A stretch of 25,490 nucleotides of DNA from a virus. Numbering within the stretch: position 1 is the stretch's first letter; every line of letters begins with the position of its first letter. The notes beneath the pieces are model-generated. The model did not search any database, was not told the origin of the DNA, and saw only the letters and a program-made list of their open reading frames with translations. Below, in pieces: positions 19,690 to 25,490 of the stretch. The position numbers and the translations under genes are program-made. The stretch lies in IMG/VR virus record IMGVR_UViG_3300007735_000531, positions 1 through 25,490 of that record. One strand, given 5' to 3'.

Positions 19690-20911
19690 AACGCCGTTGC
19701 AGTTGCTTCAAGGTTAGCTCTGATCCATCTTCGCTCACCATCCGTGCAATCGCCTGCTGCGGGCCATGCCTGCGACTAAGCATCTCAAAATATGGCACCT
19801 TGTTGGGGCCAAGCACATCAGCTTGTACGGCTGCCGGCTGCTTTGACAGCCATTCACCGTAGGTTGTGCCGGATGGCACCATGCCGCCAGCTGCAGCACG
19901 CTTGCCTTCAGGTGGTGGCGTGAAGCCTAGGCCTTTGTAATCAATGATCGGCACCGTAGTGCTGCGGCAGTTGAAGTGCTGCGGTGGCCGCGGCCCTTGG
20001 CCATAGGGAAACTCACGGCCATCTAGCGCGCGACATATTGCGCTGGTCCTGCTGTCAAGCGTCGCCACGTAGCGGTATTTTTTCGTAATGTCTTGATTTG
20101 CTTCGTAGAAGTTATTGCTAGCAGCATTCGCCACTTGATTGATGCTGGTGCGCACGATGGCGGTGACTTGGCTGTTGGCCATCTTGGTTAGCTCGCCGCC
20201 GGCCTGCGCTAGCTCGCGCACGCTTCTGGCCTCCTGCCCGAAGTCAAGGTTGCCGATCAGTCGTCGTGCAATGGATGGCGTCGGCTCACCGCTGAGTAGG
20301 CCATTACGCACCACGTTGCTAAAGCGCTCCGCCTGGCTGGTAGCAAGGCCGCGAAATGCCTTCTCAACAACCTGCCCATTCGGCAGCGTGATCGTTGCAC
20401 CTTTTGCAGCCGTTAGGTTGAACAGCCCAGTGCCGGCCTGCGTTGCTAATGCCTCGGTGCCATAGACGGACTTGAAAAGGTCATCTGACAACGCCACTAC
20501 GTTCAGCTGCGTTGGGTCTGTGGTCACTACAGACTGCGCAAACTGCGGGCTGATCTCAACGGTCCGCACCAGCGATCGGCCCTCAGGTGGCAATGCCTTC
20601 CGCAGCTGATCGGCGACGAACTCAGTCTGCAGTAACGCCAGGCCTTGCAGTTCACCGGCTGTGATCGCAGTCGCATCGCCGGCCCATCCGTCCAGGCTTT
20701 CCTTCAACTGCGCCAGCAGCGCACGCAATCGCGCTTGCGTTGCGGGTGCCGTGACGACGCTACCATCAGCTCGCGGGATAGTGCGCTCCAGCTGCTGCAC
20801 AGCGTTGATGATGATGTCGTTATATCGCAGGATGATCTGCTTGGCGACGCTATTGCTATAGCGGTTCAGATCAATGGCATTACGAAAGAACGCGGCAGGG
20901 GTATCGCTCAT
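19670..20911 (-). CDS. Minor head protein, Mu gpF/SPP1 gp7-like (413 aa)
   Basis: A 413-residue head morphogenesis protein. The N-terminal ~200 residues are helical. The Mu-F family domain is visible in the C-terminal part: NANSQVTAIVRTSINQVANA-like helix (about 245-265), then RYVATLDSRTSAICRALDGR (about 281-300), the GxxPPxHxxCRS motif (PRPPQHFNCRSTTVPI, about 305-320) with His and Cys conserved. In related phages this protein binds the portal and enters the procapsid, helping DNA stabilisation or ejection. It follows the portal with a 4-base overlap, the normal order. Confidence 0.92.
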   Translation of the reverse strand: MSDTPAAFFRNAIDLNRYSNSVAKQIILRYNDIIINAVQQLERTIPRADGSVVTAPATQARLRALLAQLKESLDGWAGDATAITAGELQGLALLQTEFVADQLRKALPPEGRSLVRTVEISPQFAQSVVTTDPTQLNVVALSDDLFKSVYGTEALATQAGTGLFNLTAAKGATITLPNGQVVEKAFRGLATSQAERFSNVVRNGLLSGEPTPSIARRLIGNLDFGQEARSVRELAQAGGELTKMANSQVTAIVRTSINQVANAASNNFYEANQDITKKYRYVATLDSRTSAICRALDGREFPYGQGPRPPQHFNCRSTTVPIIDYKGLGFTPPPEGKRAAAGGMVPSGTTYGEWLSKQPAAVQADVLGPNKVPYFEMLSRRHGPQQAIARMVSEDGSELTLKQLQRRYGTQTN

Positions 20912-22338
20912 GCGCTGACATTAAGATCCTCCGTGCTCGGTGCTTCGGTTGGCATGACATCGCTAGCAGCAGCCGGCTGATTCATTTCGATCAGCCCACC
21001 CTGCTGCGTTGCCATCAACTCTTCCTCCACCTCAAAGTCATCGCCTAGCACCTCACCCTGCGCCAGATTAGTGAGCAGCGTCTCTTGCGTAATTGCATTG
21101 GCAACCCATAGGTCACGCAGTGCATTGATGTCCGCTGGCTCCAGCCTGCTACCGAGGAAGTCACGGTTGACGTAGCTGCTGCCAACCTGCGTAATGTTCA
21201 GGTACTGCGCATGGTACGCCAGGCAGTTGTCGATCAGATCCTGCATGTTTTGCGCGATCACCATCATGGTGCTATCGCCTTGACTGCGGTCGATGCGTTT
21301 CGCTTCGGCAGTCTCAGCGCTCAGTTTCTGCCCCAGCACTGCCGACAGGCCTAGTTCATTGATCTGCGCTGCTAGTTGCTCCAGCCGGCGGAACTGCGCA
21401 TCAAATGCCCCGGTTTGCGGTGCGATGTATTCCGCGCGCCCTTCAGCCGGAAATGCAATGGCCTCGCCGGGACCAGCGGATACTTCCTCGGCGCTGCTCG
21501 GGAAACCAAAGAATGCCAGCATCGGCACGGCTGAGATGTGCAGCTGGTTGTCGAGATCGCTCTGCGATTGATACGCCTTAAGGTTCAGCTCTGCAATATC
21601 CTCCAGCGGTGGGCGTGATTCCATCATCCCAACGCGATTGGCGTATGCCACGCCAAATGGGATGCGGTCCAGGCTGGTTGTACCTTCGTCGTACAGCTCA
21701 AAGTTGCCCTTATCTCCCTTGCGATGCAGCTGATATGCGCCAGGTGTCAGCAGCCTGATCTGCTCCACGGTCTTCTCACCGTAGTCGCCATCAGGCACCA
21801 CGACTGACTCCTGCAGCCGCAGTTGCGTCAGCTGCTGCTGCCCGTCGATCAGCTCCGTCCGCCAGCCGAGGATTTCGCGCGGTGTGTAGCTGCACCAGTA
21901 CGGCCTGCCATTTTGCCCAGCAGCTGGTGCATCAACAAGAACACCAACATGCCCGTAACGGATCATCTTGCGTGCAGTCTCATATGTCCATACGTTCAGA
22001 TCATTGCCTTGCAGGTCAACATCAAACAGCTGCTCACGGATGGTGTCGTCTACATCCTTCAGTTGCACCGGCTTCCGCGTCAGCATTCCAGCCAGCATCC
22101 GCTCCAGCCGTTGGTAGAACGGCGGGCATACGCTACGCATCAGTCGGGCGTCGTAGCTGTCGTCTGCTTCGCGTGGCTCCTGCGGCAGGTAACGCCGATG
22201 GCGGCGACGGATTTCATATGTGCCGCCGATCAGGTCCTCGATCAGCAGCCAATGCGGCTCTTGGTTCACCCATGCCTGGCATGGGTCGTTGATCTGCGCA
22301 ACGCGAGCGGTGATCGTACGGTCGTAGCGTTGCATCAT
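20908..22338 (-). CDS. Portal protein, DUF4055 type (476 aa)
   Basis: A 476-residue portal protein forming the dodecameric channel for DNA packaging. Features of the DUF4055 group include the early DSYDARLMRSVCPPFYQRLE and GMLTRKPVQL (about 61-93), TYETARKMIRYGHVGVLVDA (about 118-137), WCSYTPREILGWR (148-160) and the central helix region AELNLKAYQSQSDLDNQLHI (~252-271) with FGFPSSAEEVSAGPGEAIAF. The C-terminus is Gln/Glu-rich and probably disordered. It lies between terminase and minor head genes; overlaps with both neighbours are 1-4 bases. Confidence 0.92.
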   Translation of the reverse strand: MMQRYDRTITARVAQINDPCQAWVNQEPHWLLIEDLIGGTYEIRRRHRRYLPQEPREADDSYDARLMRSVCPPFYQRLERMLAGMLTRKPVQLKDVDDTIREQLFDVDLQGNDLNVWTYETARKMIRYGHVGVLVDAPAAGQNGRPYWCSYTPREILGWRTELIDGQQQLTQLRLQESVVVPDGDYGEKTVEQIRLLTPGAYQLHRKGDKGNFELYDEGTTSLDRIPFGVAYANRVGMMESRPPLEDIAELNLKAYQSQSDLDNQLHISAVPMLAFFGFPSSAEEVSAGPGEAIAFPAEGRAEYIAPQTGAFDAQFRRLEQLAAQINELGLSAVLGQKLSAETAEAKRIDRSQGDSTMMVIAQNMQDLIDNCLAYHAQYLNITQVGSSYVNRDFLGSRLEPADINALRDLWVANAITQETLLTNLAQGEVLGDDFEVEEELMATQQGGLIEMNQPAAASDVMPTEAPSTEDLNVSA

Positions 22339-23693
22339 CAGTAGATACGGATTCCAGTGCTGCGGCCGGCATTGGCATGGAGTGGGTTGAACTCACGCCA
22401 CACGAGGTAGCCGAGTGCATCATTCATGTGGTCAAAGCCGGCATCCTTATCAGGGTCGCCACTGTCAGTGTAGCTTTGCAGCTCTAGGCATTCGATCAGC
22501 CGCTTGCAGGATTGATGCACCTGAAGCCTGATCTCACCTTTGCCGTTTTCCAGCAAAGCCTGAACAGCAGCCACGCGATCACGGATGGGAGGGTTAGCGC
22601 GTGGTGATTGGTTGCTGAAGCCATAGGACTCAAGAATCTGAATGTCGGTCTGGGTTGCGTTGGTGCTGCGGCTACTACCGCTGGCATCTGGGTAGATGTA
22701 GATGCGGTGGTCTTGGTAGCGCCTGCGGATTTCCTGCGCCAGCGCGTCAGTGTCATGCGCACCGCTGATTTCATCCACAACCGTAAGGCGCTTGGTGTCA
22801 CGTATGGCGATGACGGCTGACATATTGCCAACGTTGAAGTCAATGCCAATACGAAGCGGCTCGCGGTCAATAGCAGGCAGGCTGCTGAAGACATGCTTGC
22901 TGCGATCAAAGCGGTCATACACCTGCCCGGTAGTCAGGTTGACGAACTCGCCATCGAGATAGGCGCGCAGCAGGCTTGGGTCGTAGTTGGCCTGCAGCCG
23001 TTCGATGAAATCCGGCGGCAGGTGTGGGTTGTCGCTGGTACGCATCCTGATCAGGTGGCGATCAGCGCGCGCCTTGCCGTCATCACTGCCGAAGGTCTTC
23101 CACATCCAGCGGAAGCCTTCAGGCGTTGATGCAGCGCCGAACTGTCGCACGTTGCCGGAGCGCAAGCGGCCGAGGATCTTTGGAAATGCCTTGTCGGCAA
23201 TGCTTGGCGTTACGGTGTCGATCTCATCCGCCAGCACCCATGCAAGGTTCAAGCCGATGATGCGCTGCCAGTTCTCAAAGCTGCGGCATAGGATCTTGGT
23301 ATCACCGCCAGGCAGGTGCAGGATGTACTCCGGCAGCGGTGATGCACGAAAGCTGTACGGAATGCTGTACAGCTCTAGGAAGTTGTCAAAATCCGTCTGC
23401 CAGATGTCGCGGATCAGCGGGCCGGTGGGCTCCATCACGGCGCCGATGAAACCTTGATTAGCAGCAGCCAGCATCACAGCCTTGGCGCATAGCGCACGTG
23501 TCTTGCCGGCGCCATAGCCAGCACTGATACCAAGGATCTCGGTAGCGGTGTCATCCGCAAACGCAAGCTGGCCTGGGTGCAGGTCAGAGCGGATAGCCGC
23601 TAGCTGCTGCTCTAGGTCAAATGCCGTCCGTCCCTGCTGCTCCAGCTCCAATGCCGCCAGCCGCGCGGCAATCGGATCAGTCAGTCTTGACAT
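22338..23693 (-). CDS. terL: Terminase large subunit (451 aa)
   Basis: ATP-driven DNA packaging motor and headful or end-cutting nuclease. The Walker A motif SAGYGAGKT is at residues 57-65, the Walker B LAWVLADEID ends with Asp156-Glu157, and a coupling-motif-like FGAASTPEG lies at 185-193. The C-terminal RNase H-like nuclease domain has the first acidic motif IGIDFNVG with Asp285, a middle YPDASG motif near 350, and the final GFDHMNDALGYLVW motif near 420-435. Length is normal for the family. It overlaps the small-subunit gene by 17 bases and the portal by one. The packaging strategy cannot be decided from the sequence seen. Confidence 0.95.
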   Translation of the reverse strand: MSRLTDPIAARLAALELEQQGRTAFDLEQQLAAIRSDLHPGQLAFADDTATEILGISAGYGAGKTRALCAKAVMLAAANQGFIGAVMEPTGPLIRDIWQTDFDNFLELYSIPYSFRASPLPEYILHLPGGDTKILCRSFENWQRIIGLNLAWVLADEIDTVTPSIADKAFPKILGRLRSGNVRQFGAASTPEGFRWMWKTFGSDDGKARADRHLIRMRTSDNPHLPPDFIERLQANYDPSLLRAYLDGEFVNLTTGQVYDRFDRSKHVFSSLPAIDREPLRIGIDFNVGNMSAVIAIRDTKRLTVVDEISGAHDTDALAQEIRRRYQDHRIYIYPDASGSSRSTNATQTDIQILESYGFSNQSPRANPPIRDRVAAVQALLENGKGEIRLQVHQSCKRLIECLELQSYTDSGDPDKDAGFDHMNDALGYLVWREFNPLHANAGRSTGIRIY

Positions 23694-24144
23694 TATGACC
23701 AGTCTTTGCCGTGATCCTTAACAGCAGGTCACGCTCTACATCAGGCGGCAGGTTTGCATCAGCAATAGCCTGCACTGCAGCGTCGATGCCTTCCTGTTTG
23801 GCGCGAGTTACAGCGGCATTGTCTGAATAATGAGAGCGGAATGCAGGTGCATGGGTAAGCATCCAAGTTGATGCTTTTAGGTCGCCGCCTTCAGCTTGTT
23901 CAGCGATCTTTCCCATAAGCCGCATGCCACCTGCGGCGCGGCCATCATTGACAGCTTGCAAAAGCCGCACTTCCTCAGCCGTTGCGTCTTCGCCCTTTGC
24001 GTTGTTGATCCATTGCAGCATTGCCCGGAACGATACCCCAGCCGCTGGCGCAATATGCTCAAGAGGTGCGCCAAACTCAGCGAGAAAGCGCACCTTTTTG
24101 ATCACATCGTCGTTCAGTTTGTAATGACGACGGGCTGGCTTCAC
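23677..24144 (-). CDS. terS: Terminase small subunit-like protein (155 aa)
   Basis: A 155-residue, helical, DNA-binding-type protein. Residues ~8-50 form a helix-turn-helix pattern (LNDDVIKKVRFLAEFGAPLE, then HIAPAAGVSFRAMLQWINNA), typical of the small terminase N-terminus. The middle GGDLKASTWMLTHAPAFRSH (~87-106) is a recurring small-terminase segment in phages. It sits directly before the large subunit (17-base overlap), which makes the name likely. It would recognise the pac or cos site; no such site can be identified in the window. Its ATG overlaps the sliding clamp stop by 4 bases. Confidence 0.85.
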   Translation of the reverse strand: MKPARRHYKLNDDVIKKVRFLAEFGAPLEHIAPAAGVSFRAMLQWINNAKGEDATAEEVRLLQAVNDGRAAGGMRLMGKIAEQAEGGDLKASTWMLTHAPAFRSHYSDNAAVTRAKQEGIDAAVQAIADANLPPDVERDLLLRITAKTGHNVKTD

Positions 24145-25232
24145 TCTCGTACTTGCACGGGCATGATCAGGTACGTCTGCATCGTATCAGTATCGACTGG
24201 CGTGATGACAACGGGTGTAGTGGGTTTGTTGGCTGACAGCGTGACTTGCTGCGATGGCATGGCCTTCAGTGCATCTTGCAGGTAGGCGGCATTAACAGCG
24301 AAGGTAACAGGCTTGCCGGTGGTGGAGATCGCTAGGGTTTCGCTGCCATTGCCAAGTTCAACATCAGCGGTGACGGCAAGCATATCACCGATCGCCAGCT
24401 TGATGATGTTGTTATGGGTGTCGGCAAGGATTGCGACGCGGGCAACAGCGGCCAGCAGCGCTTTGCGGTCTACGGTAGCAGTTGTGGCGAAGCTATCGGG
24501 AATCAGCTTAGCGAAATCAGGATACGTCCCATCCAAGATGCGCGAGGTGATGACGGTGCGATCAGTCGCTAGGCGCACGTAGGCATTGTCAGCGGTGACG
24601 GTGATGTCAGCGTCGAGGTGCTGCAGCTCGCGGAGCGTAGTGGCTGGAATGGTGATGGCAGGCGTCTCGGCAAGTGGCGCGCTGCCGTACACGGAGAGGC
24701 GATGACCATCGGTTGCTGCAGCTTGGATGCCCATGGGGTCCAGGCTGATGTGGATGCCCTGCAGCAGCTGCTTAGCTTCATCACGGCTGGCGGCATGAGC
24801 AGTGGCGCTGATGGCAGACTGCAGGTCCGGCAGCGGGATGGTGATGGGCGTTGAGGCGGCACTGGGCTCGATCAATGCCGGCCAGTCGGATGGGTTTAAC
24901 GCGGTGAGGCTGTATTCACCGGCTGCGGTGGCCAGTGCAACGCGGCTGCCGGATACGGCGATGGTGACGGCTGCATCGGATGGCAGCTTGGCCACCAGTG
25001 GCGCCAGAAGGCCGTATGGCACGGCTGCAGAGCCCTTGGTGGTAACTGCAGCGGGAATGGTAGTGGTGATGGCCAGCTTGAGGTCAAAGCCGGACAGGCT
25101 GAGCGAGTCCTTGCTGGTGGCATCCAGCAGCACGGTGGCAAGGATCGGATGGCTGGCGCGACCGGTGCAGACGGCAGAGCGGATGGCAGCCAAGGCTGCG
25201 TTGAGGTCGGACTGAGCGACGGTGATGTTCAT
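24141..25232 (-). CDS. dnaN: DNA polymerase III beta sliding clamp (363 aa)
   Basis: Full-length ring-forming processivity factor; bacterial DnaN is ~365-380 residues with three clamp domains of ~120. Motifs seen: SHPILATVLLDA (28-38), FDLKLAI (49-55), DEAKQLLQGIHI (151-162), ATDGHRLSVYG (173-183), SRILDGTYPDFAKLIP (230-245), VARVAILADTHNNIIKL (263-279) and the C-terminal YLIMPVQVRE (354-363), where bacterial clamps end in MPMRL-type residues. The MPVQ(I/V)R end, DEAKQLL and ILADxHNN patterns resemble cyanobacterial DnaN as I recall it. Internal conservation suggests a working clamp. It is coupled by ATGA overlaps to an upstream ribbon-helix-helix gene and to the small terminase gene downstream, an unusual place for a replication gene. 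Confidence 0.95.
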   Translation of the reverse strand: MNITVAQSDLNAALAAIRSAVCTGRASHPILATVLLDATSKDSLSLSGFDLKLAITTTIPAAVTTKGSAAVPYGLLAPLVAKLPSDAAVTIAVSGSRVALATAAGEYSLTALNPSDWPALIEPSAASTPITIPLPDLQSAISATAHAASRDEAKQLLQGIHISLDPMGIQAAATDGHRLSVYGSAPLAETPAITIPATTLRELQHLDADITVTADNAYVRLATDRTVITSRILDGTYPDFAKLIPDSFATTATVDRKALLAAVARVAILADTHNNIIKLAIGDMLAVTADVELGNGSETLAISTTGKPVTFAVNAAYLQDALKAMPSQQVTLSANKPTTPVVITPVDTDTMQTYLIMPVQVRE

Positions 25233-25486
25233 GAGGCGAGGATGTTAACGGCGATAGCAGCAGCCTGCTCGGCATGAAGGCGCGAGATAGCGCCACCGAG
25301 CTGGCGGTGGATTTCAGAGCTGAGGCGGTGGTATGCGGCGAGGCTTGGCGTGGTCACTGCGGCACCTTGCGTGGCACCACGGATGAGCTGCCTAAGGCAC
25401 TCGGCGCGGGTTTGACCGCGGGACTGGGCTAGCAGGTCAATGCCTGCGGCTTCATCGTCGGGGAGGCGGAGCTTCAGTTCACGCAT
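25229..25486 (-). CDS. Ribbon-helix-helix-like small protein (85 aa)
   Basis: An 85-residue protein beginning MRELKLRLPDDEAAGIDLLA. Residues 1-37 fit a ribbon-helix-helix fold: a beta strand (RELKLRLP), a first helix (DDEAAGIDLLAQSRG) and a second helix (TRAECLRQLIRGA). The C-terminal ~45 residues are Ala-rich helix. Such proteins often dimerise and bind operators, sometimes autoregulating. The ATG (25484-25486) is 4 bases from the window edge, so its promoter and RBS cannot be judged. The stop overlaps the clamp ATG by 4 bases. A regulator of the clamp/terminase operon or a plasmid/relaxase-type accessory protein are alternatives. Confidence 0.7.
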   Translation of the reverse strand: MRELKLRLPDDEAAGIDLLAQSRGQTRAECLRQLIRGATQGAAVTTPSLAAYHRLSSEIHRQLGGAISRLHAEQAAAIAVNILAS

Positions 25487-25490
25487 CGCT

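Follow-up and report, generated by a model that had tools for sequence, protein, structure and literature searches.

The locus described here raises the question of why a siphophage of picocyanobacteria, which are minute cyanobacteria of the sea and of fresh water, should carry its own beta sliding clamp, the ring that keeps DNA polymerase attached to DNA, and why the gene for this clamp lies beside the genes for DNA packaging. By the window we mean the whole stretch of DNA that was analysed, 25,490 nt in length. It is a linear virus record of IMG/VR with its end immediately upstream of a ribbon-helix-helix (RHH) gene, so the virus's own replication genes lie outside the window.

The clamp gene and its neighbours

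The clamp gene and the genes closest to it are as follows:

25229..25489, minus strand: ribbon-helix-helix (CopG/RHH_1) protein (RHH_1, 2e-6), whose 5' end reaches the contig end or lies beyond it
24141..25232, minus strand: DnaN-type beta sliding clamp with three clamp domains, 363 aa (Pfam, PHROG, AlphaFold, dN/dS)
23677..24144, minus strand: small terminase subunit (TerS), GTG start (phrog_4102, 2e-6)
22338..23693, minus strand: large terminase subunit (TerL; Terminase_6N/6C, profile matches)
20908..22338, minus strand: portal protein (DUF4055, phrog_145)

The clamp gene consists of 363 codons (25232..24141), starts with ATG and encodes a protein ending in MPVQVRE. The original prediction had placed a complete three-domain DnaN at 24141-25232, and both its position and its completeness proved correct, the strand being minus. 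The Pfam domains PF00712, PF02767 and PF02768 occur in this order (2.9e-19, 4.3e-17 and 2.8e-19, far above the cut-off), and PHROG 947, 'DNA polymerase processivity factor', matches the protein from end to end (1.7e-70). The DEAKQLL and ILADTHNN blocks, as well as MPVQVR near the C-terminal end, are all present, as had been described. Structure prediction, which had been proposed as a check, gave a confident monomer model (AlphaFold pLDDT 91.5, pTM 0.84) with a clamp fold, and Foldseek aligned it to solved beta clamps of E. coli, Streptococcus and others with TM scores of 0.91-0.93. The cleft residues are intact: L155, T172-L177 (TDGHRL), P242, M362 and P363 (enterobacterial numbering) are identical to those of Salmonella, and the remaining cleft positions are the same as in picocyanobacterial DnaN or differ conservatively. 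Judged by its domains, predicted fold and hydrophobic partner cleft, the gene is a DnaN, the bacterial beta sliding clamp, and it is under strong purifying selection, with a dN/dS of 0.06-0.09 against near relatives.

The RHH gene lies upstream of the clamp and overlaps it by ATGA. An ATGA-linked run from RHH through the clamp to the terminase had been predicted; this holds for the RHH-clamp junction and fails at the next one, where terS overlaps the clamp stop by GTGA. The genes that follow terS on the same strand encode TerL, the portal, a Mu-F-like protein, a scaffold, the major capsid protein, a tape measure and a gpJ-like protein.

Origin of the clamp

The best cellular matches of the clamp are the DnaN proteins of Synechococcaceae, Cyanobium and Prochlorococcus (E ~1e-76 to 1e-85), while the clamps of non-cyanobacterial phages match it at best with E ~1e-24; these values come from different search spaces, and the trees are therefore the better evidence for origin. 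The tree that included outgroups united the clamps of phages and cyanobacteria in a single clade (support 100), to which Gammaproteobacteria, Bacillota and most other phage clamps do not belong. That first rooted tree placed the branch of phage clamps, a long-branched clade, at the base of the cyanobacteria. When the distant outgroups were removed and the tree was rooted on other cyanobacteria, all 28 viral rows (28/28) nested within picocyanobacteria, with supports of 100/99 and 98/95 on the key branches. When phages were constrained to group with picocyanobacteria in the outgroup tree, the likelihood was higher than in the unconstrained search, and the AU test does not reject this constraint (p-AU 0.885). 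An origin outside cyanobacteria is thus rejected by the trees and by the better likelihood of the constrained topology, and the original suggestion of a cyanobacterial-type DnaN taken from a picocyanobacterial host is supported. The simplest reading of these sequences would be a single acquisition from a picocyanobacterium, long ago.

Several other observations concern DnaN in cellular and viral records. Some of the larger cyanobacterial genomes encode two clamps, the second being divergent and lying in an open frame of ~500-590 codons (G085:C2, G093:C18, G095:C10, G099:C21). A genome record titled Bifidobacterium breve (L139) includes a picocyanobacterial dnaN contig and is likely mis-binned or mis-named. 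Three records that bear the names of Enterococcus, Staphylococcus and Acinetobacter phages (L330, L331, L337) have a DnaN resembling that of a host chromosome, and L337 has dnaA-dnaN-recF.

Gene order in related phages

Relatives were collected from IMG/VR, 80 by TerL, 80 by clamp and 80 more around the TerL of phage MED4-184, and the isolates S-H1, KBS-S-2A, MED4-184 and MED4-117 were added. The sample is thus defined by closeness to two TerL sequences and to the clamp, and the virus records in it are mostly fragments. The usual order is a replication gene, RHH, clamp, in some cases a methyltransferase, TerS, TerL and portal, and in many relatives an RHH homologue precedes the clamp. The survey of clamp-terminase adjacency that had been called for found the clamp beside terS-terL to be widespread, and since the order is kept in most relatives, a chance adjacency is rejected.

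The replication slot is occupied by one of three primase-helicases (Zn-ribbon/Toprim, D5/DUF5906 or Prim-Pol/VapE) or by a lambda-O-like initiator, a classification based on matches to profiles and to single sequences. Of the relatives whose upstream DNA is available, the nearest are L003 and L004 (clamp 97-98% and TerL 96% identical), which have a Zn-Toprim primase; L005 and L006 (78-79%), also among the nearest, have an O-like gene.

A hotspot of insertion lies between clamp and TerS (L005 9089-10273; L022, L056, L069 and others), where a gene for an N6/N4 DNA methyltransferase is often present, linked by ATGA/GTGA overlaps. Two unrelated proteins of 107 aa and 155 aa alternate in the TerS position, behind the same clamp and before a near-identical TerL; those of L003 (9097-9420) and of the window (23677-24144) differ despite 96% TerL identity. 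In MED4-184, a weak Tet/JBP-like oxygenase match (L092 17129-17911) lies upstream of terL, next to methyltransferases of the FkbM type and to DNA methyltransferases, and this group of genes could mean modified DNA.

Clamp presence and initiator type

Loci with distinct TerL were taken as the counting unit and classed by initiator and clamp, and O-like records were searched over their whole length. Among relatives with their own primase-helicase, of any of the three unrelated types, the clamp was present in 81/82. Among those with a lambda-O-like initiator it was present in 3/23 (L005, L006 and L061) and missing from 20; the clamp of L061 is included in this count, having been found by the whole-record search outside the stretch fetched around terL. 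The association of clamp with initiator class has a Fisher p of 2e-17, a value that ignores relatedness. The sole primase-helicase phage of the set without a clamp is L064, a 38 kb record with a D5-type primase.

Clamp-bearing rows of the TerL tree have switched from one kind of primase to another at least 29 times, with the clamp retained. The same tree offers 5 independent contrasts of initiator class: on average, the clamp changes with the initiator in 3.5 of them and runs counter to it in 0, and this number of contrasts is too small for statistical significance. A strict link of the clamp to one primase is rejected, as three primase types occur. Two isolates illustrate the contrast, since S-H1 carries the clamp and KBS-S-2A is without it, and the host of both is Synechococcus WH7803. 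The best reading of these observations is that the clamp goes with the replication module and not with the adjoining packaging genes.

From this, a rule can tentatively be proposed: within one lineage, a phage with its own primase-helicase, of whatever kind, needs its own clamp, and a switch to an initiator that recruits the entire host replisome leads to loss of the clamp. We consider the rule possible, though we would not yet favor it over its negation. If it is true, the clamp would allow phages that encode no polymerase to take over host Pol III while bypassing host DnaB and DnaG. No report of a link between clamp and initiator was found in the literature searched, in which subscription journals were thinly covered; clamp-bearing phages are already known, and the link to initiator type appears new.

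Proposed role of the clamp and alternatives

It is probable that the gene encodes a working clamp of picocyanobacterial host origin that is kept in the phage replication module, loaded by the host and used by host Pol III. As judged from L003 and L004, the phage would make its own primase-helicase, with which it would open and prime its own forks, and, as judged from the relatives, it would have neither a DNA polymerase nor a clamp loader. Pol III alpha or PolA were not detected in 20 records, nor were PolB or the loader subunit DNA_pol3_delta2 in 16, both sets being drawn from the longer relatives and including the complete S-H1. Because neither polymerase nor loader was detected in S-H1 and relatives, the ring would be placed on phage primers by the clamp loader of the host and would be bound, through its conserved cleft, by host Pol III on forks opened by the phage primase-helicase. 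Such loading and use by host proteins fit the host-like cleft and origin of the clamp. The position of the gene just before terS would then mark the border between replication and head genes.

A lambda O-like initiator would be expected to recruit host DnaB together with the host clamp, so that the phage could dispense with a clamp of its own. A primase-helicase encoded by the phage recruits neither of them, and a clamp of its own would help such a phage to capture the polymerase. In O-like phages of the same packaging lineage, the initiator would be expected to recruit host helicase and replisome, and the clamp is mostly absent from them. Of the roles suggested originally, replacement of the host clamp at phage forks fits best.

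The phage clamp might instead act away from the fork, diverting host clamp partners, such as repair enzymes or regulators of replication initiation, from host DNA or onto phage DNA. An intact cleft would bind host partners; however, the presence of the gene tracks primase type, a dependence that would be unnecessary for a general decoy, and we consider this role unlikely.

A packaging role, in which terminase would be recruited by rings that stay behind on phage DNA after replication, draws on the clamp-terS-terL order kept across most clamp-bearing relatives and on the tight spacing to the next gene (4-base overlaps or 3-5 base gaps). If the clamp were required wherever this terminase occurs, it should accompany it throughout, but the 20 distinct-TerL O-like records without a clamp include KBS-S-2A and MED4-184, and KBS-S-2A, MED4-184 and MED4-117, whose TerL are 74-79% identical, all do without it (the TerL of MED4-117 is the same as that of MED4-184). 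The slot after the clamp is occupied by two unrelated TerS types and by methyltransferase genes. In L249, the Zn-Toprim primase and the clamp are retained, but the terminase next to them belongs to the unrelated gpA type (GpA_ATPase 8e-102) and the portal is of another kind. In L061, a distance of more than 10 kb separates terL from the clamp gene, which is encoded on the opposite strand of the contig within an early recombination cluster, close to Sak, RusA and sigma-factor genes. In other groups of viruses the clamp gene is found next to RecT and SSB (L181) or downstream of RecT (L184). The canonical clamp-binding motif (QLxLF-type) was found in 0/122 TerL and 0/82 TerSb, and in none of the RHH proteins; a scan of the primases likewise found none. 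Packaging coupling is therefore rejected on presence and absence, on the swapped terminase and on the absent binding motifs, and we regard it as very unlikely.

Least probable of all is a late-transcription activator like T4 gp45, a DNA-tracking ring that would help a phage sigma factor at late promoters: some relatives have an RpoD-like sigma factor (L005, L061, KBS-S-2A), but KBS-S-2A has it without a clamp, the complete S-H1 has a clamp and no annotated sigma factor, so that the two are not strictly paired, and T4 gp45 requires its own loader, of which none was found in the records searched. A promoter and terminator scan of L003 4400-10800 found none, which says little for a cyanophage. 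The packaging or late-transcription role that had been put forward for this gene is thus unsupported, as the clamp tracks the replication module (81/82 versus 3/23).

These phages offer a natural experiment on how polymerase-less phages take over the host replisome. Upstream of a single clamp that was derived from the host and has been retained, three unrelated primase-helicases replace one another freely, and with an O-like initiator the clamp is mostly absent. The pattern predicts which part of the replisome a phage must supply itself.

Comparison with known systems

Phage-borne DnaN is a known kind of protein, represented by PHROG 947 and many annotated records. The closest described case is the 'DNA polymerase III beta subunit' of Synechococcus phage S-H1 (AZB50554, MK105819), which was annotated previously and belongs to the same clamp clade. 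S-H1, isolated on Synechococcus WH7803, has the order primase-RHH-clamp-TerS-TerL-portal, matching the usual order of the relatives; its clamp is ~39% identical to the one described here and falls in a different subclade.

The DnaN of picocyanobacterial hosts (Cyanobium, Synechococcus, Prochlorococcus) is 36-43% identical to the phage clamp over its full length and has the cleft residues and the MPVQ end in common with it, and the phage clade nests among the hosts. The host genes are chromosomal, and most of them are somewhat longer than the phage copies, which lie on longer branches.

The DnaN of other phages, including those of Arthrobacter, Rhizobium, Salinibacter, Microcystis and Nodularia (PHROG 947), belongs to the same family and is usually encoded among replication genes, but, where the surroundings were read, without an adjoining annotated terminase. 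These proteins fall mostly outside the cyanobacterial clade, the Nodularia phage clamp being long-branched among other cyanobacteria. T4 gp45 is, like the clamp described here, encoded by a phage; in contrast to it, gp45 is trimeric, lies outside the DnaN sequence family and works with its own loader and polymerase.
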